In this document: positions 46,383-53,669 of the stretch, in pieces
Layout: each line of letters starts with the position of its first letter
Numbering within the stretch: the stretch's first letter is position 1
NCBI RefSeq assembly: GCF_004151275.2
Contig: NZ_CP130821.1
Location: forward strand, 2,418,001-2,482,000
Source of the DNA: Flavobacterium dauae
Lineage (GTDB): Bacteria; Bacteroidota; Bacteroidia; Flavobacteriales; Flavobacteriaceae
Direction: 5' to 3'
Length of the DNA: 64,000 bases
Program-made: the position numbers and the translations under genes
Notes under the pieces: generated by a model
What the model saw: only the letters and a program-made list of their open reading frames with translations
Database searches by the model: none
What the model was told of the DNA's origin: nothing

Positions 46383-49178
46383 CTATGAACCGAATTTTTT
46401 AACATTAATCGTTTTTTCTTTAACCTTTATCTCAAATGTAGGAAGCTGTGTTATTTTTCCGGCTACAATATTGAAATCATAAGAGGTTTGTTCGCAATAA
46501 GTATTATCGGGCAATGAATTTTGATTAATAAAAATCTGATAATTTCCGGTAGGAAGAAAACCTACAAAAACACCGTCTTCGTTTGAAGGAATCCGTTGTA
46601 TGAATTTTCCATCTTGAAAGATATTAAAGATAATTCCACCCGATTTTAGCTCAAAATTCAATACTTTATTTGGATCATAATCATAATGGATTTTTCCTGA
46701 AATCGTTCCGTTTTGCTGTAAAGGAATTAAAACATAGCTTTGGTAACCATCAATTACGCATTCTGTTCCTTCACTAAACCAACCTTTTTGTACAACAGGT
46801 TGTGTTTTATAATTTCCGAAGGGCAATGAGCGGTATTCAAACCTACCTTCGTTGTTTGTTTTAAATGTTGTTTTGTTAATAGTAACAAAATAATCAGGTG
46901 CTGGCTCATCGCCTTCATCAAAGATATTATTACTGTTTTTGTCGTAAAAAACCTTTGCAAACAAAGCTCCTTTTCTGCCTAAAGAAGGTTTAGTTCCTTT
47001 AAAATTATAGGTCAATCCTGCTTCTATTATGAACATTTTTCCTTGCGAAAAAATAGCGTTATGGCTATCGTAACGATACCACGATGAATTAAGAAAAATT
47101 TGATATTGCGTATTGGGTACATATTTTACATTTAGGAACGCAGACGGAGTTTGTCCCAAATAAAAATCATCAACATAAGAAGCCCCTGTTTTTACAGATA
47201 ATTTATTGTTTATAAAATTTTTATCGGCAGCTACCACAAATGTTAACCGTTCAAAGGTTGATTCTTTGTCTGCTACCCTAAGTACAGAGGCATATTCTGA
47301 CAAGTAAAAACTTCCGTATTGATACATTGCACTCGCACTTAACCATTTAAAGCTATATATGGCATTTAATTTTAACTGAGGTTTTAGTTGAAGGCTTTCT
47401 GAAAGTTGTGTTAGTCCTTCTTCTATCCCCAAAGTTACAGAATGTGTTTGATTGTTACTTATCCAGTTAAAATTTTCTAACAATCGATGGCTTTTCATTT
47501 GTAAAACTCCGTTAGGCGTTAATCCCATAAAGCTGTTGCTTTTTTCGGTAACATACTGATATTCAAATGTTGTTCCCAAGAATTTTATCCTTGGCAAGGT
47601 AATACCCGTATTAAAACGAAAATTATCTGACCGCACAAACATATTGTACATATACGATTGAGGTGAGAAATCGGAAAACAATATGTTGGCATAAAGGGTA
47701 CGGTTTTTAGAAATAGTTTTTAGAAAACTTTGTTGAATTTGTGTCGTTCCTCTGCGATTTCCGGGAAAATAATCCGAGCTAATAAAATAATTCCCCGATA
47801 ATCTTAATGTATTAATAGTTCCGCTATATTGGGTTTCAACCGAAAAAACCGGCTTGCTTTTATCGTTTATTTCATAGTTGCTTATTCCACCATAAGTTTT
47901 TAAATTTCCTTGCCAATTTTTCCCAAATCTCTGTGTTTTGTCTATACCTATTAAATGATGTTGTGCCAATTCGGTAACATCGTTTTTATAAATATAACTT
48001 CCGGTAATATAATCAGACGAATTTGAACCTCCTAAGATTCCTGTGGCATACATACCATAATTATTTTTTAGAAACGCATTTTTCTCTGTCAGATTAAAAT
48101 TCTCATCTATAAATCCAACTTCCAGCTTACGGTTGTTTTCTTTATCTGCCAATTTAACTTGCACGCCTCGTCCAAAAAGAGGCATATCTGACGACAAATT
48201 AACATTACCCACTTTAATACTGCTGTTGTCTAAATGATACTCTAAATAGGTATTGGTTACTAAAGTCTGTTGCTGATTATTTTTATAAAAGTTACCGTTT
48301 AACGAAACGTATCCTGCCGGAAGATCTACATCGGCAGAACCCATTAATTGATAAGAATCTGCATTTTTACCAATGGTCCGGTAGCTTGCTGTTACGCTGT
48401 TTTTTTGATACATTTGTGCATATCCGGCATTTTCTACATTTTGATAACGTTTTACCGAAGAAACATTTTGCACCGTAACAGCCGTATTTCCAAAAAGTAT
48501 CTTTTCAGAACTACGCATTCCTGTTACATTAACTGTAAATTGTGATTGGTTTAGCAACGAATTGGGCAGTAAAAGCTTAAAATCAAAAACTGTATCTTTC
48601 TGAACATCAACGCTGCCTTTTAGTTCAAAAAAATTGCTTTCGCCTACAAGAACAGGAATACTGAAAATAACAAAAACGTCCTGCTTACGGTTCCCGAGAT
48701 TGGTAACCGCAACTTTTACCGACAAAGAGTCGTTCACGTTCGTTAAAAAAATACTAGAAAGCTCTGCAGATAATCTCAAATTGTTGTTTTCTTCTGTATG
48801 TTGATCAACGTTTTGCAATGCAACTATAGTTCCGTCTTTATTTAAAACTACCATTTCAATGGTTGAAATCCCTGCTTTTACCGTTGTTTCGCGAAGTACT
48901 TTTATCGGAACAAACATTTGTTCGCCTGCATCTATAAGCAATGGAATAGTTTCGTTTGAAATATTCTTAAATCCCTTTGGCGTACTAATTTTTAAAGTAC
49001 CTTCAAAAGACGTATCGGTTGTATTGTGTACCGCAACAACCATATCAACAAGGTTCTTCTTTTGAATAGATGGCTGTTCTGTTTGTACATCAAGTGTTAT
49101 CCCGTTTTGAGCATAAGAGATAAAACAAAACAACATCAAAAAAGAAAATAACAGTTTACGTATCAATAAATTAAGCAT
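46383..49178 (-). CDS. usher-like outer-membrane barrel protein of a chaperone-usher-type locus
   Basis: 931 residues. Signal peptide (cleavage after SYAQ). Two Ig-like beta domains fill about 25-135 and 136-245. A long barrel-like stretch with alternating aromatic strands spans about 255-730. At 321-343 the sequence IKVGNVNLSSDMPLFGRGVQ has the spacing of the usher barrel-entry motif (LGDxxxxxDxFDxxxFRGxQL). Two C-terminal beta domains follow: 737-800, starting with an acidic DKNSNNIFDEGDE loop, and about 820-931. This order resembles ushers, but the identity is inferred, not shown by alignment. It is last in the operon, 17 bp after the adhesin-like gene. The alternative is an unrelated outer-membrane assembly factor. 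Confidence 0.6.
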   Translation of the reverse strand: MLNLLIRKLLFSFLMLFCFISYAQNGITLDVQTEQPSIQKKNLVDMVVAVHNTTDTSFEGTLKISTPKGFKNISNETIPLLIDAGEQMFVPIKVLRETTVKAGISTIEMVVLNKDGTIVALQNVDQHTEENNNLRLSAELSSIFLTNVNDSLSVKVAVTNLGNRKQDVFVIFSIPVLVGESNFFELKGSVDVQKDTVFDFKLLLPNSLLNQSQFTVNVTGMRSSEKILFGNTAVTVQNVSSVKRYQNVENAGYAQMYQKNSVTASYRTIGKNADSYQLMGSADVDLPAGYVSLNGNFYKNNQQQTLVTNTYLEYHLDNSSIKVGNVNLSSDMPLFGRGVQVKLADKENNRKLEVGFIDENFNLTEKNAFLKNNYGMYATGILGGSNSSDYITGSYIYKNDVTELAQHHLIGIDKTQRFGKNWQGNLKTYGGISNYEINDKSKPVFSVETQYSGTINTLRLSGNYFISSDYFPGNRRGTTQIQQSFLKTISKNRTLYANILFSDFSPQSYMYNMFVRSDNFRFNTGITLPRIKFLGTTFEYQYVTEKSNSFMGLTPNGVLQMKSHRLLENFNWISNNQTHSVTLGIEEGLTQLSESLQLKPQLKLNAIYSFKWLSASAMYQYGSFYLSEYASVLRVADKESTFERLTFVVAADKNFINNKLSVKTGASYVDDFYLGQTPSAFLNVKYVPNTQYQIFLNSSWYRYDSHNAIFSQGKMFIIEAGLTYNFKGTKPSLGRKGALFAKVFYDKNSNNIFDEGDEPAPDYFVTINKTTFKTNNEGRFEYRSLPFGNYKTQPVVQKGWFSEGTECVIDGYQSYVLIPLQQNGTISGKIHYDYDPNKVLNFELKSGGIIFNIFQDGKFIQRIPSNEDGVFVGFLPTGNYQIFINQNSLPDNTYCEQTSYDFNIVAGKITQLPTFEIKVKEKTINVKKFGS

Positions 49179-49195
49179 TTTTTGATGAGGTATTT

Positions 49196-50230
49196 TTACT
49201 TTGGCAAAATTTCGTATTGTAACGTAGTAGAATACTGTTCCATTTTTCCTGTAATCAAATTCATATCATTGGGTTGGGTAGCATAGGTAATACTGTAAGA
49301 AACCTGCCCATTGGTATTAGCACCCGATGCAATTTTTTGCGAAGTGTTGCTTAATGTTATAGGAAAAACAGCTCCCTGATTTCCTGCCTCGGGCATTAAA
49401 TTAAGTCGCACTGTGCCTAAAGGCAGCGTGCTACCGGTTACCGAAGTAAAAACAGGCTGCAACGAGGTAACTTTTACCTGATAATCAGTATTGGCACTTA
49501 CAATTATTCCGCCCGGATAGGTAACACTTGCCCCTTGTAAATAGTCTTGTTTTGTTTTCAATTCTAACAAACCATTTACCGCATTTGACGCTATTTTTAT
49601 TGAAAATTGTGGGGTTACAGGTGGAGTTCCGCTTAAAGCACCTATTTGTAGGCGATACATTTTATTTATACTTCCTTTAAGCTGACCTTTTTCGTCATAA
49701 TATTTAAACTCTAAAGGCACTGAAAATTCCGAATAAGTTTTAAAAGCAGCCAAATAAGCACCTCCTTCAATTTTTAAATCAAACCGGATATGGAATTGAT
49801 AATAGGGATTTCCTCCACCCGCTACATTATATAACCCTGCTTGTGATTGTGGAACTAAAAACACCTCTTGCCCTTGTTGTAAAAAGGTTTGTAGAGGCAT
49901 TCCTATTTGTGGAATAGTAGGAACAGTACTTTGGTTAAGCATACCAGATGTTGCTACGGGTAACAAGCTAATCTTATTTGCCGGAAAAACCTGATTGCCA
50001 TTTTGATTGCTATTAACAATAGGGCTTGTAACACGTACAGATATACGCCACGTAGGTAAGTTTAAAGTTCCGTTTCCGTCTAACCAAATATCATAAGCAT
50101 TAGCTTTAACAATACCACTGTAAGAATCAATAGTTGCATAATCGTTACTATCAACGTGTAAAGAAGTATTTTGTGCATTACTGCACCACGAAATTAAAAC
50201 TAAAAATATATATATTAACTTATTATTCAT
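49196..50230 (-). CDS. tip-adhesin-like protein with C-terminal pilin-like domain
   Basis: 344 residues from the ATG at 50230. A longer frame opens at 50281 inside the chaperone gene, but this ATG begins a clean signal peptide (cleavage after SNAQ) and overlaps the chaperone stop by only 8 bp. Residues 21-198 form one beta-rich domain. A Pro-rich linker (GTPPVTPQ) follows. Residues 208-344 resemble the two small subunits: DYLQGA near 229, ANTDYQVKVTS near 247, and a closing TTLQYEI strand. The N-terminal domain lacks the VTLNVNL strand of the subunits, as expected of a tip protein that caps a fibre. The role is inferred. Confidence 0.6.
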   Translation of the reverse strand: MNNKLIYIFLVLISWCSNAQNTSLHVDSNDYATIDSYSGIVKANAYDIWLDGNGTLNLPTWRISVRVTSPIVNSNQNGNQVFPANKISLLPVATSGMLNQSTVPTIPQIGMPLQTFLQQGQEVFLVPQSQAGLYNVAGGGNPYYQFHIRFDLKIEGGAYLAAFKTYSEFSVPLEFKYYDEKGQLKGSINKMYRLQIGALSGTPPVTPQFSIKIASNAVNGLLELKTKQDYLQGASVTYPGGIIVSANTDYQVKVTSLQPVFTSVTGSTLPLGTVRLNLMPEAGNQGAVFPITLSNTSQKIASGANTNGQVSYSITYATQPNDMNLITGKMEQYSTTLQYEILPK

Positions 50231-51020
50231 AAGTAAAGGATAGTTCTGCCATTTCAATGGTGTTATCGTCGCCATAATCAATAAGAATGGTTGCGGTGTA
50301 CTTGCCGGGCGTTGTATTTTCCGGCAATTTAATGGTCATTTCGCGGTTATCTCCAGGCATACTGTAAAAAATAATGTGATCTATTTTTACTTTTTTGCCA
50401 TTTTGCGTGTTAAATAATTCAGGGTAAATGATACCGTCTGCCCAGATGTTTCCTTTGTTTTTAAAATAAAGCTCTATTAATTTGGTTTCTTTATTAAACA
50501 AAAGATTTTCTATTTCCAGCTTTTTGTTTTTTGATTCATTGGTACGGTGGAACAGCTTAATTCCCGAACGTACGCTTACTTTTATGTTTGCCCCCTGACT
50601 ATCTACATCGTTTACCGGATTCATTTGTGTTACATACAGCATTGCCGTGTGTACAGGTCTTTCGTCGGTAAGCGTGTTAGGCGTTGTAATGCTTACCTCT
50701 ATTTCTTTATTTTGTCCAGGTTGTAATGAAAAATAGGTATCTTCTTTTTTAATGGTTACCCAGCTTGCACAAGATGTTGGCAGGCTATCGGCAGGAAACA
50801 TTAAATTTTCACCTTTATCATCGTATTTCCAATCACCTAAACTTACCGCTAAATCCATTGTATGCGATGTACTTACATTAGAAACCATAACTTTTTGTAC
50901 TCCGCTTTGCCCCGGATCTGCTTCGTAATACAAACGCGGTGGAGATACAGAAATACCTGTTTGCGAAAAAACAGACAAAAAAGGAAATAAGAAACAAAAA
51001 ATCGACAGAAATACTCGCAT
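50223..51020 (-). CDS. PapD-like periplasmic pilus chaperone
   Basis: 265 residues. Signal peptide (cleavage after SVFSQ), then two Ig-like domains. The first begins ISVSPPRLYYEADPG, close to the start of PapD-type chaperones. The edge strand VSVRSGIKLFHR matches the G1-strand region of such chaperones, which end in KLFYRP, and carries the alternating hydrophobic residues that complete subunits. The second domain follows (about 165-265). In known systems such a chaperone caps pilins by donor-strand complementation and delivers them to the usher. Its stop overlaps the adhesin start by 8 bp. Confidence 0.75.
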   Translation of the reverse strand: MRVFLSIFCFLFPFLSVFSQTGISVSPPRLYYEADPGQSGVQKVMVSNVSTSHTMDLAVSLGDWKYDDKGENLMFPADSLPTSCASWVTIKKEDTYFSLQPGQNKEIEVSITTPNTLTDERPVHTAMLYVTQMNPVNDVDSQGANIKVSVRSGIKLFHRTNESKNKKLEIENLLFNKETKLIELYFKNKGNIWADGIIYPELFNTQNGKKVKIDHIIFYSMPGDNREMTIKLPENTTPGKYTATILIDYGDDNTIEMAELSFTYE

Positions 51021-51104
51021 ATAACATATTTTATGACATAAATTTACAAAAAAAGTGTTACAAAAGCTTGTAACACCTTATTCTAAATTATAACAGACCA
51101 CAAA

Positions 51105-51650
51105 TTATTGTGCTACAATAGTGTATGTTACCGTTGTTGTAAATACTGTAGCTGTTTGCCCTGCTACGTATTTATCAATATAAGCATTTGCACCTGCCGC
51201 CGCATAGTTAATGTTAATGTTTTTGTCAACAGCTCCTAATGTAGAAGTTACAATATTTTGATCACCCGTAGATAATGCAACTCCATTCGCTGTATAGCTC
51301 GCACTGGCTAAAGCGTCGTTTGTACCTGCTGATGCCGTAATCCTTACTGATGCCGCATCAATATTTCCGTTACCGCCCGAAACCGATTTTGTTAAATCAC
51401 CGCTTGCTTTTACCGATACCGCAAAACCACCTGTGCTGAATATTTTTAAATGGTTTTGTTGCATAGCGCTTACTCCGCTCGCATAGTCATTTTCAGTAAC
51501 ATAATCTAAATCAACCGTTGTTTGTGATGGTAGTACCACTAAAGTTTGGATAGGATTTAAGTTTACATTTAATGTTACATCACCTGATGTTTGTGCTTGT
51601 GATGCTGCTGCGAATAATATTGTAAAAGAAGCTAAAAGTACTTTTCTCAT
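51105..51650 (-). CDS. pilin-like subunit 1
   Basis: 181 residues; signal peptide cleaved after ASQAQ. The mature N-terminus carries VTLNVNLNPIQTLVV, an alternating hydrophobic strand like a donor-strand extension. The body has ENDYASG, STGGFAVSVKASG, and a closing strand TTTVTYTI at the C-terminus. No cysteines occur in the mature part. It is about 40 percent alike by eye to subunit 2 (52173-52685) and shares motifs with the C-terminal half of the adhesin-like protein. It is rich in Ala, Thr and Gly, as major pilins often are, so I think it the main subunit. A duplicated promoter lies upstream. Confidence 0.68.
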   Translation of the reverse strand: MRKVLLASFTILFAAASQAQTSGDVTLNVNLNPIQTLVVLPSQTTVDLDYVTENDYASGVSAMQQNHLKIFSTGGFAVSVKASGDLTKSVSGGNGNIDAASVRITASAGTNDALASASYTANGVALSTGDQNIVTSTLGAVDKNININYAAAGANAYIDKYVAGQTATVFTTTVTYTIVAQ

Positions 51651-51739
51651 TTTTTTAAATTATTTTTTTAAAAAATTTATATTTTTTTATTATATTTGAT
51701 GGTTAGGTTCTTCAAAAGAACCTCTTTATTAATTCGGTG

Positions 51740-51773
51740 CAAATGTATTTCGGTTTTTTATACATTCACTTAT
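51740..51773 (-). promoter_or_regulatory. promoter module A of pilin-like subunit 1
   Basis: The minus strand reads ATAAGT (51768-51773), a 20-nt spacer and TACATTTG (51740-51747, TAnnTTTG). ATAAGT replaces the usual TTTG, which suggests that an activator is needed. Confidence 0.55.
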
Positions 51774-51845
51774 AAAAAACCGCTAAAAACTTGTTGTTTT
51801 TTACCTGTGCTTTTTAAAAAGAACTAAATCTCTGTTAATACAGCT

Positions 51846-51879
51846 CAAATATATTTTGGAGCTTTGGATGTGCACTTAT
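51846..51879 (-). promoter_or_regulatory. promoter module B of pilin-like subunit 1
   Basis: The minus strand reads ATAAGT (51874-51879), a 20-nt spacer and TATATTTG (51846-51853). It has the same spacing and same upstream element as module A, 106 bp further from the gene. Confidence 0.55.
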
Positions 51880-52172
51880 TAAAAACGTAGAAAAATTTGT
51901 TATTTCTTACCTCTGTGTTTGTTATAATCAAGCTACATTAAGCATAGTTGCTTTTTTAGCAACGCCTTTAAATTATTATCACATTGGTTAATCTGTATTG
52001 TCGAAGTATTTTGTTTAGCCACAGGTTTGCAGATAAACACCGGGCTAAGTCTCAAAATTTGAGCAGTATGAAGCTTTGTTTTTATTTTAACTAATTACAT
52101 CCAAAACAAAGCTAAGCAGAACAAAGTTGAATTTGAACGTTTAGACTCACCTAATTTAAACGTTGCTTAAAA

Positions 52173-52685
52173 CTACTGAGAAACAATAGTATAAAGAATA
52201 TTATAATGATAATTTGCAGTGGCAGCAGGCTTGCTGTAATTAATATATACATTTTCACCGGCACCTTTATAAGCAATATTAAATTTTTGATTAATACAAC
52301 CTTTATTGCTTGCTATAATTACCTGTTCCTTCTCAGATACGTTTCTTTCCGAATAAATTACATTAGGCTGGTGGATATTAGAAGATGCACTTATTTTGAT
52401 GCTATTCAGCGGAATAATTTCTGACGACACCTCTTTGATACCGCTAACTTTTACCTGATAGCCCGAAGTACTGTATATTGCTAAGTGATCTGTTTGTTCA
52501 GAGACCACACCGTTTTTATAATCGTCTTTCGTTATGTAGTTAAGATTTACTTCTTGCTGCGAAGGGTTTACCATTAAGGTTTGTATGGGATACAGGTTCA
52601 CGTTAAGCGTTACACTGTTTTGTGCCTGTAGATTTAAGCTTAATAAGCCAACAAAAAAAACTGCTATTGCACAACGTATATACAT
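52173..52685 (-). CDS. pilin-like subunit 2
   Basis: 170 residues; signal peptide cleaved after LQAQ. The mature start VTLNVNLYPIQTLMV is nearly the same as in subunit 1, followed by KDDYKNG, YSTSGYQVKVSG and the closing strand YNILYTI. The single mature Cys is unpaired. It is the first gene downstream of the AraC regulator on the same strand. It is more charged and less Ala-rich than subunit 1, so a minor or adaptor subunit is plausible. A 487-bp-plus gap separates it from subunit 1, which has its own promoters. Confidence 0.66.
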   Translation of the reverse strand: MYIRCAIAVFFVGLLSLNLQAQNSVTLNVNLYPIQTLMVNPSQQEVNLNYITKDDYKNGVVSEQTDHLAIYSTSGYQVKVSGIKEVSSEIIPLNSIKISASSNIHQPNVIYSERNVSEKEQVIIASNKGCINQKFNIAYKGAGENVYINYSKPAATANYHYNILYTIVSQ

Positions 52686-52793: not shown

Positions 52794-53669
52794 TTAAAAA
52801 TGAACCCTATTCAATCCAAACGATTTTAATTCTCTTGGGCTTTTATTTGTATATTTTTTCATAAATGTGCTAAAATTAGCTTCGTCTTTAAATCCTAATT
52901 CATAGGCAGTTTCTGAAATTGTTAAAGTTGAATTTCTTAAAAGCCTAACACTTTCACTCACCACTTTATCAATTATAAATTCTTTTGCCGTTTTTCCAAC
53001 AGTAGCCTCTGTCATTTCTGTAAGGCGGCGCGGTGTAATATGCAACTGATCGGCATAAAAAGCCACCTGACGTTCTTTTTTATAATACTTTTGTAGCAAA
53101 ACTCTGAGTTTATTGGTAATATCAAAGGCAGTAAATTTTTTCATTTCTTTTTTCTCTCCTACTTTTTCATCTACATAAAACAAACCGTCTAACAAAAGAG
53201 CTTCTACGCAATTATGCGCAACAGAAATGTACAACCCTTCATTTTCTTTAGTTTTGTACAGTGCCAACCTATTTATAATAAGTTTTTGTACTTCTTCTAT
53301 AGGAATAGAAGCTTGCGTTATCGTTACTTCTGAATTGTCATTAAAAAACAAGTCTGAATTCAATAAAAAACTGTCATTAGTGGCCTTTTCATAAAAAGAC
53401 GATGAAAAAGCAACCACATATACGGCATCTTCTACTTTAGGCTGTGTACAAAATGTTATATCTTTTGAAGGAGCTACATAAACCAGACGCCCTCTTTTAA
53501 TTTCATACTTCTTTCCTTCTATAATAAATTCAACGTCTGTCAATGCAATATAAATACAAAAATAATCTGTTGTGTTTAAAGATCTGCTTCCTTTATTTCT
53601 TTCTATTATTTTAGACAAGGGATTAATACTAAACCCATTTATACTTAACTCTTTTGTAACCTGATACAT
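52794..53669 (-). CDS. AraC-family transcriptional regulator
   Basis: 291 residues. The N-terminal half is a beta-rich ligand or dimer domain. The C-terminal half (about 190-291) has the two AraC HTH motifs: YADQLHITPRRLTEMTEATVG and ISETAYELGFKDEANFSTFMKKYTNKSPREL. It lies 108 bp upstream of the pilin-like operon on the same strand and is the likely activator of it. The signal it senses is unknown. Confidence 0.9.
   Translation of the reverse strand: MYQVTKELSINGFSINPLSKIIERNKGSRSLNTTDYFCIYIALTDVEFIIEGKKYEIKRGRLVYVAPSKDITFCTQPKVEDAVYVVAFSSSFYEKATNDSFLLNSDLFFNDNSEVTITQASIPIEEVQKLIINRLALYKTKENEGLYISVAHNCVEALLLDGLFYVDEKVGEKKEMKKFTAFDITNKLRVLLQKYYKKERQVAFYADQLHITPRRLTEMTEATVGKTAKEFIIDKVVSESVRLLRNSTLTISETAYELGFKDEANFSTFMKKYTNKSPRELKSFGLNRVHF

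Follow-up and report, generated by a model that had tools for sequence, protein, structure and literature searches.

The stretch analysed here, called the window throughout, comprises 64,000 nucleotides of Flavobacterium dauae (contig NZ_CP130821.1, positions 2,418,001 to 2,482,000 of the forward strand) and lies within a 2.94 Mb single-contig genome. Five minus-strand open reading frames (ORFs) of the window probably encode, as judged from sequence comparisons, a chaperone-usher-type pilus whose outer-membrane pore would be a recast or very divergent usher (Table 1). The original prediction had described here two small subunits (S1 and S2), a chaperone, a two-domain protein and an outer-membrane barrel; all five ORFs were present in that order and at the positions given, and the motifs quoted for them were found in their translations. 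The signal peptides of S1 and S2 were recognised by eye, and the boundaries of the three regions of the usher-like protein were set in the same way. For the fourth ORF, listed as 49196–50281 (361 aa, TTG start), the probable start of the tip protein is the ATG at 50230, in better agreement with the relatives and overlapping the stop codon of the chaperone gene. The intergenic gaps measure 17 bases between tip and usher genes, 84 between S1 and chaperone and 522 between S2 and S1.

Table 1. Features of the putative pilus locus, in window coordinates
Feature	Position	Strand	Basis or remark
AraC-type regulator	52794..53669	-	HTH_18, E=1.7e-15; AraC relative upstream on the same strand in 57/80 loci
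S2, minor subunit, 170 aa	52173..52685	-	Subunit profile match; N-terminal pattern as in S1
Promoter box TACATTTGCA of S1	51738..51747	-	TAnnTTTGCA upstream of the major subunit in 45/83 loci
S1, major subunit, 181 aa	51105..51650	-	Last subunit gene ahead of the chaperone gene
S1 candidate donor strand VTLNVNL, residues 25-31	51558..51578	-	Hydrophobic alternation; absent from the tip pilin domain
Hairpin followed by T residues, 3' of S1	51052..51079	-	Covariation; terminator-like in 65/85 loci
PapD-type chaperone, 265 aa	50223..51020	-	Profile 97.7% against 18 known chaperones; key residues
Chaperone G1 donor strand, residues 146-150, followed by GIK with K155	50571..50585	-	Hydrophobic alternation
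Two-domain tip protein	49196..50230	-	Start at ATG 50230; both halves resemble S1
Usher-like outer-membrane protein, 931 aa	46383..49178	-	Downstream of the chaperone in 78/80 loci
Ig-like N-terminal region of the usher-like protein, residues 22-240	48459..49115	-	NPCBM_assoc (NEW3)/FixG_C matches among members
Predicted beta-barrel of the usher-like protein, residues 241-738	46965..48458	-	Rough amphipathic strand count 23-27
RG motif of the barrel, residues 321-340	48159..48218	-	Invariant G324, G336, R337, G338
Two C-terminal prealbumin-like domains, residues 739-931	46386..46964	-	SpaA and SdrD_B matches; 98.7% against bridging ushers

The cassette is more than a chance arrangement of ORFs, since the gene set is conserved across the Bacteroidota. 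Among 80 loci fetched with the chaperone alignment alone (the best of 100 relatives), 77 carry tip and usher-like genes downstream of the chaperone gene on the same strand, and 79 have one to four subunit genes upstream of it. The contig stops before the usher in two of the exceptions (L038 and L047), and in the other (L091) a 372-residue protein, recognised by the subunit model and not by the tip model, takes the place of the tip. The hosts belong to Chryseobacterium, Flavobacterium, Myroides, Paenimyroides, Mesonia, Niabella, Dysgonomonas, Arcticibacter, Daejeonella, Taibaiella and Algoriella, together with some unplaced metagenome bins. Of the 60 nearest-relative genomes, F. dauae itself counted, 6 encode the usher-like protein, and the five-gene order recurs in 5 other genomes. 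Across 395 genomes drawn evenly from the phylum, again with F. dauae included, the usher alignment gave matches in 21 genomes and the chaperone alignment in 20 at a threshold of 1e-5. Usher matches of 73 bits or more were confined to 12 genomes, F. dauae among them, and the same set of 12 had the chaperone matches of 123 bits or more; the remaining 9 usher matches reach at most 40 bits and cover C-terminal domains only. Three of the 12 (G329, G376 and G427) showed a partial usher match that was covered by a full-length usher-like ORF near the chaperone gene, on the opposite strand to it in G329 and G427. Chaperone and usher distances correlate over 82 loci with r=0.976, which is expected of joint inheritance. 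A tblastn search of plasmids with the usher-like protein gave no match. The window chaperone is nearer to those of other orders in L062 (Dysgonomonas), L025 and L048 (Niabella), at 54–63% identity, than to those of the Flavobacterium loci L081–L083, L085, L086, L088, L089 and L092, at 36–39%, a pattern that hints at horizontal transfer or old paralogy.

The PapD-type nature proposed for the chaperone was supported by profile homology over both domains and by the key residues. A 47-sequence profile, built from 40 sequences and a further 7 divergent ones, gave 97.7% (E=2.5e-12, 216 columns) when compared with 18 known chaperones, 11 classical and 7 alternative, taken from E. coli K-12 and plasmid records; the reversed profile gave 0.8% and 20 column shuffles at most 1.7%. 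The profile of 40 sequences reached 96.2% against the 18 known chaperones and 93.8% against the 11 classical ones, and the 47-sequence profile 88.4% against the 7 alternative ones alone; as a yardstick, classical against alternative chaperones gave 93.8%. A check against PapD_N had also been proposed, and the window protein did match this model (E=0.0099), albeit below the Pfam cut-off; the same holds for all matches at E<=1 in the 40-sequence set (13 members, best 0.0012), as judged from the best 25 of 50 Pfam families. NCBIfam fimbrial-chaperone models were matched weakly by single members of this set (best E=0.0018). Sequence searches of the PDB with chaperone and usher queries returned nothing relevant, a NOMO2 match being to a prealbumin-like domain.

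A closer inspection of the alignment with FimC places R29 on the N-terminal arginine and K155 on the lysine of the IKL motif, and the final YG of the window chaperone on the DYG of FimC. We take R29 and K155 to be Arg8 and Lys112 of the classical chaperones. In the set of 86 chaperones, to which two genomes contribute two loci each (L011/L041 and L012/L081), position 29 holds R in 81 sequences and K in the other 5, while K155 and G153 are invariant. Hydrophobic residues occupy positions 146, 148 and 150 of the G1 strand in 86/86 sequences and positions 147, 149 and 151 in none. P101, present in 85/86, falls on the P of the chaperone consensus, a column at which FimC itself differs; we read it as the proline that is conserved throughout the superfamily according to the available text of PMC4654587. 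The same source describes two basic residues that hold the subunit C-terminus in classical chaperones and are missing from archaic ones, and the window chaperone would therefore be of the classical sort, having both R29 and K155.

The subunit gene in the S1 position, the last before the chaperone, was found once in 85 of the 86 loci. A profile of these 85 major subunits gave 67.9% over 129 columns against 18 classical pilins (reversed, 0.4%; 15 shuffles, at most 0.3%), and a smaller alignment of 13 subunits gave 25.3%; this is suggestive, not conclusive, of homology to known pilins. Near the mature N-terminus of S1, residues 27, 29 and 31 are hydrophobic in 84/84 sequences and their neighbours polar. 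The original view of the small proteins as pilin-like subunits was upheld in that they have a candidate N-terminal donor strand, with the link to known pilins at only the 67.9% just mentioned. A match of S1 to a selenate transporter (E=0.0013) was taken as chance. No sorting-domain or FimA-family model is among the matches listed for S1, S2, the tip protein or their alignments. Type IX secretion cargo and FimA/Mfa-type (type V) pili, which are the known surface-protein routes of the Bacteroidota, would offer another identity for these proteins; given that absence, and a dedicated chaperone and outer-membrane protein in the same operon, such an identity appears highly improbable.

The second half of the two-domain protein does resemble the small subunits, as had been predicted: its comparison with S1 (80 of 85 tips, those longer than 364 aa being left out) gave 99.4% over 138 columns, from subunit residue 32 to the end. 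The tip pilin domain is thus devoid of the candidate donor strand, because the homology to S1 begins at residue 32. An N-terminal strand in the subunits that is missing from the tip is a requirement of donor-strand exchange. The N-terminal half of the tip also resembles the subunit (90.6%). Over loci L014–L073 the chaperone has a mean identity to the window of 56.4% and the major subunit of 51.8%, compared with 48.0% for the C-terminal half of the tip and 41.6% for its N-terminal half, which is thus the least conserved piece, as would be expected of an adhesin domain.

The 931-residue protein is the component whose assignment is least direct. Its 46 aligned members keep G324, G336, R337 and G338 without exception, and a rough count of amphipathic strands gave 23–27 for the window barrel, 25–28 for FimD (plug strands counted in) and 24–27 for EcpC. 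The segment 321–340, which had been called usher-like, falls on LTLGDGYTQGDIFDGINFRGAQ of FimD (the RGAQ motif) at a similar depth in the barrel; the invariant residues in 46/46 members speak for that description, while the best alignment with FimD is insignificant (1.4–2.0%). A similar RG motif occurs in 7 of 13 canonical ushers, all of them classical, and in 0 of 9 bridging ushers (see below). Among the best 25 of 47 Pfam families matched by the barrel proteins, SpaA was found in 44/46 members and SdrD_B in 30/46, both at the C-terminal domains, and NPCBM_assoc (NEW3) in 18/46 and FixG_C in 9/46, which in the window protein are placed in the Ig-like region; no plug model is among these 25. 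Seven divergent paralogues alone gave 68.8% against canonical ushers, over the C-terminal domains.

A further connection runs through the usher clusters of family f38 of the same phylum (L138, L139 and L142–L145), here called bridging ushers. These gave 95.7–96.7% over 503–507 columns against pooled canonical ushers (reversed, 0.2%), weak matches against the alternative or archaic sets alone, and PF00577 matches that stayed below the cut-off (lowest E 1.9e-5); their chaperones gave 98–99% against those of the window family. The C-terminal domains of the window family reached 98.7% against the bridging ushers and 21.0% against canonical C-terminal domains. At full length the alignment of the window usher family with f38 spans 404 columns, and it is driven by the C-terminal domains, because the barrel alone gives 0.2%. 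The window barrel protein is thus likely linked to ushers in a transitive way via f38, through domains of a common type.

Several results weigh against a chaperone-usher pilus at this locus. The barrel protein matched no usher model in Pfam or NCBIfam, PF00577 is absent genome-wide at E<=1, and direct profile comparison with 13 canonical ushers gave 0.3–11%. The barrel part alone gave 0.1–2.5% against canonical barrels and 0.2% against those of the bridging ushers. With the 40-sequence chaperone profile (A6), the 7 alternative chaperones alone gave 1.6%; the subunits reached 2.1% against one archaic pilin, and the tip pilin domain 0.5% when compared directly with classical pilins. The C-terminal marks of pilins, which we take to be Gly at -14, Tyr at -2 and alternating hydrophobic residues, are for the most part missing: Gly at -14 is seen in 29 of 154 distinct subunits against 18/18 pilins of the K-12 type, and Tyr at -2 is outside the six commonest residues of the 154 subunits against 16/18 known pilins. 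Hydrophobic residues common to pilins and subunits occupy positions -4 and -8 in 154/154 and -6 in 153/154.

The scarcity of the Gly and Tyr marks would suit a surface layer or matrix protein, with the small proteins leaving through the barrel as complete Ig domains and without polymerising by strand exchange. That explanation is very improbable, because strand exchange would predict, and it would not, a G1-type strand in the chaperone, a strand found in the subunits yet not in the tip and a profile link, though a weak one, to classical pilins. A more serious competitor, though still an unlikely one, is a donor-strand fibre which follows chaperone-usher logic and leaves through an unrelated, recruited pore. 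It draws on the well-supported chaperone and tip in the company of a barrel without an usher model match, and on an Ig-like N-terminal region that gave 0.3% against the usher N-terminal domain, the barrel part being unmatched to canonical or bridging ushers. Opposed to it are the high score of the C-terminal domains against the bridging ushers, themselves well matched to canonical ushers, the RG motif collinear with that of FimD and the FimD-like strand count. The negative result for the barrel alone is in any case uninformative, because a known usher pair (alternative against archaic) was missed by the same comparison (1.0%).

The preferred reading thus remains a chaperone-usher-type pilus with an altered pore. 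The original claim of a complete, divergent chaperone-usher system stood as regards the chaperone, the subunits, the tip and the conserved cassette, and was not upheld as regards the identity of the barrel: no usher model was matched, the N-terminal domain gave 0.3%, the plug was not detected and the links are indirect. The pore is treated here as a likely functional equivalent of the usher and not as an usher, because two defining features of ushers, a PF00577 match and the N-terminal domain, were not detected in it. It is possible that the usher N-terminal domain was replaced or is very divergent in the window protein. A fused chaperone in the Ig-like region was considered on the basis of 51.2% with the wide profile and 56.7% with the divergent paralogues, and kept as a lead only; the narrower usher profile (1.7% and 1.9%) and the paralogues' own pair (12.1%) weakened the idea, and the comparison with known chaperones gave 8.5%. 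Only tentatively may the pore be regarded as a new class of assembly platform, that is, an usher-like plugless barrel with its N-terminal domain replaced by a two-Ig module, maybe derived from a PapD-type chaperone, and working with a classical-type chaperone in a phylum for which such pili are not listed.

The regions around S1 were compared across loci. TAnnTTTGCA occurs upstream of the major subunit in 45/83 loci (shuffled mean 1.1, maximum 4), and its TAnnTTTG part is presumably the -7 box of the Bacteroidota; TTTTTnACAA lies further upstream in 33/83 (shuffled mean 1.8, maximum 5). A terminator-like hairpin follows the major subunit in 65/85 loci, compared with 22/86 after the chaperone, 27/85 after the tip and 28/84 after the usher. 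In 43 hairpin sequences, chosen from 82 distinct stretches by leaving out those without a visible hairpin and near-duplicates, 97.3% of the cells are paired against 34–59% with the strands slid, and two-sided changes are seen at 7 of 11 pairs, where shuffles gave 2.8 on average. Both elements were accepted only on this cross-locus comparison; in a promoter and terminator scan of the window alone, such sites were no more numerous than in shuffles. An Rfam match to the rimP leader was below the gathering score. A 19-base inverted repeat, 95% complementary (51786–51804/52726–52744), flanks S2 and its upstream stretch and is not clearly beyond chance. It could be a regulator site or bound an invertible segment; an invertible switch was not accepted, as the 4 matches in the window (at most 3 mismatches) were equalled or exceeded in 7 of 100 shuffles.

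In the mechanism proposed, the subunits would enter the periplasm by their signal peptides, where each would be capped by the two-domain chaperone, which lends its G1 strand (I146, V148 and V150) while R29 and K155 would hold the subunit C-terminus, as do their counterparts in classical chaperones. The absence of a donor strand from its pilin domain suggests that the tip protein would go first. The VTLNVNL strand of S1 would then be inserted into the groove of the neighbouring subunit, displacing the chaperone. The 931-residue outer-membrane protein would serve as the assembly pore, to judge from its position, co-occurrence, architecture and indirect homology. The promoter box and 3' hairpin of S1 may raise the amount of the major subunit above that of chaperone, tip and pore, and the AraC protein probably controls expression of the locus.

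Among known systems, the type 1 pilus of E. coli (fimACDFGH) resembles the window locus in its chaperone, which is homologous throughout its two domains and has both the basic pair and a hydrophobic G1 strand, in a two-domain tip that, as in FimH, has no N-terminal strand of its own, and in an operon of subunit, chaperone, tip and outer-membrane protein. It differs in that the window outer-membrane protein has no usher model match, usher N-terminal domain or detected plug, the subunits mostly lack the C-terminal Gly and Tyr marks, and the tip gene stands ahead of the pore gene instead of last. The E. coli common pilus (ecp) is likewise a small cluster of subunit, chaperone, usher and adhesin, with 88.4% for the wide chaperone profile; the narrower profile gave 1.6%, however, and EcpC at most 2–11% against the window barrel protein. 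The bridging clusters of f38 are alike in the C-terminal usher domains and in the chaperones and unlike in the barrel, which in f38 matches canonical ushers and, below threshold, PF00577, whereas the window barrel part gave 0.2% against it. FimA/Mfa1 (type V) pili occur in the same phylum and polymerise by strand exchange; these systems are not known to include a chaperone or usher, and the window proteins show no match to their families. Archaic pili (Csu, CupE) have the widest distribution reported in the available text of PMC4654587 and PMC10104325. Unlike archaic chaperones, described in the former as devoid of the classical basic pair, the window chaperone has it, and the window barrel protein gave 0.3% against one archaic-type usher.

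Other clusters of the phylum set were noted. In L138 (2790–14080), and by eye in L139, L142 and L144, a chaperone, an usher and several pilin-like proteins lie beside flagellar-motor-like genes, which in L138 are a gene with three FliG-domain matches, one with OmpA, SPOR and MotB-plug domains and, by eye, a MotA-like gene. A second divergent cassette with a tip of 457–478 residues is present in L136 (5545–12080), L137 (2808–10657), L146 (3834–11537) and L182 (3664–9349), the last with the order usher, subunit, chaperone, tip; its hosts are two Chryseobacterium-like genomes that also have the first cassette and two others. More subunit-chaperone clusters, from other families, are L185 (5836–12332) and L183 (4195–7752); L185 encodes a 1340-residue usher-like protein with 63 bits to the usher profile and 98.2% over 824 columns in profile comparison.

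Chaperone-usher systems are listed for Proteobacteria, Cyanobacteria and Deinococcus-Thermus in the available text of PMC4654587 and PMC10104325, a list in which the Bacteroidota do not appear, and classical systems are described in that of PMC4654587 as confined to Beta- and Gammaproteobacteria. Among the matches listed from the open-licence literature, none reports a chaperone-usher system for the Bacteroidota, and canonical ushers above the PF00577 cut-off were found in 0 of the 395 phylum genomes. Pfam and NCBIfam gave no model for the cassette proteins, the matches listed being weak and mostly of Ig type, and such loci therefore probably go unnamed. If the reading is true, a basic pair found outside the Beta- and Gammaproteobacteria would make it necessary to reconsider how classical chaperones originated. 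A major adhesion pathway would reach a phylum whose members live in soil and water and in association with plants and animals, and the usher mechanism (recruitment, gating and hand-over) would become testable against a natural variant with different parts.

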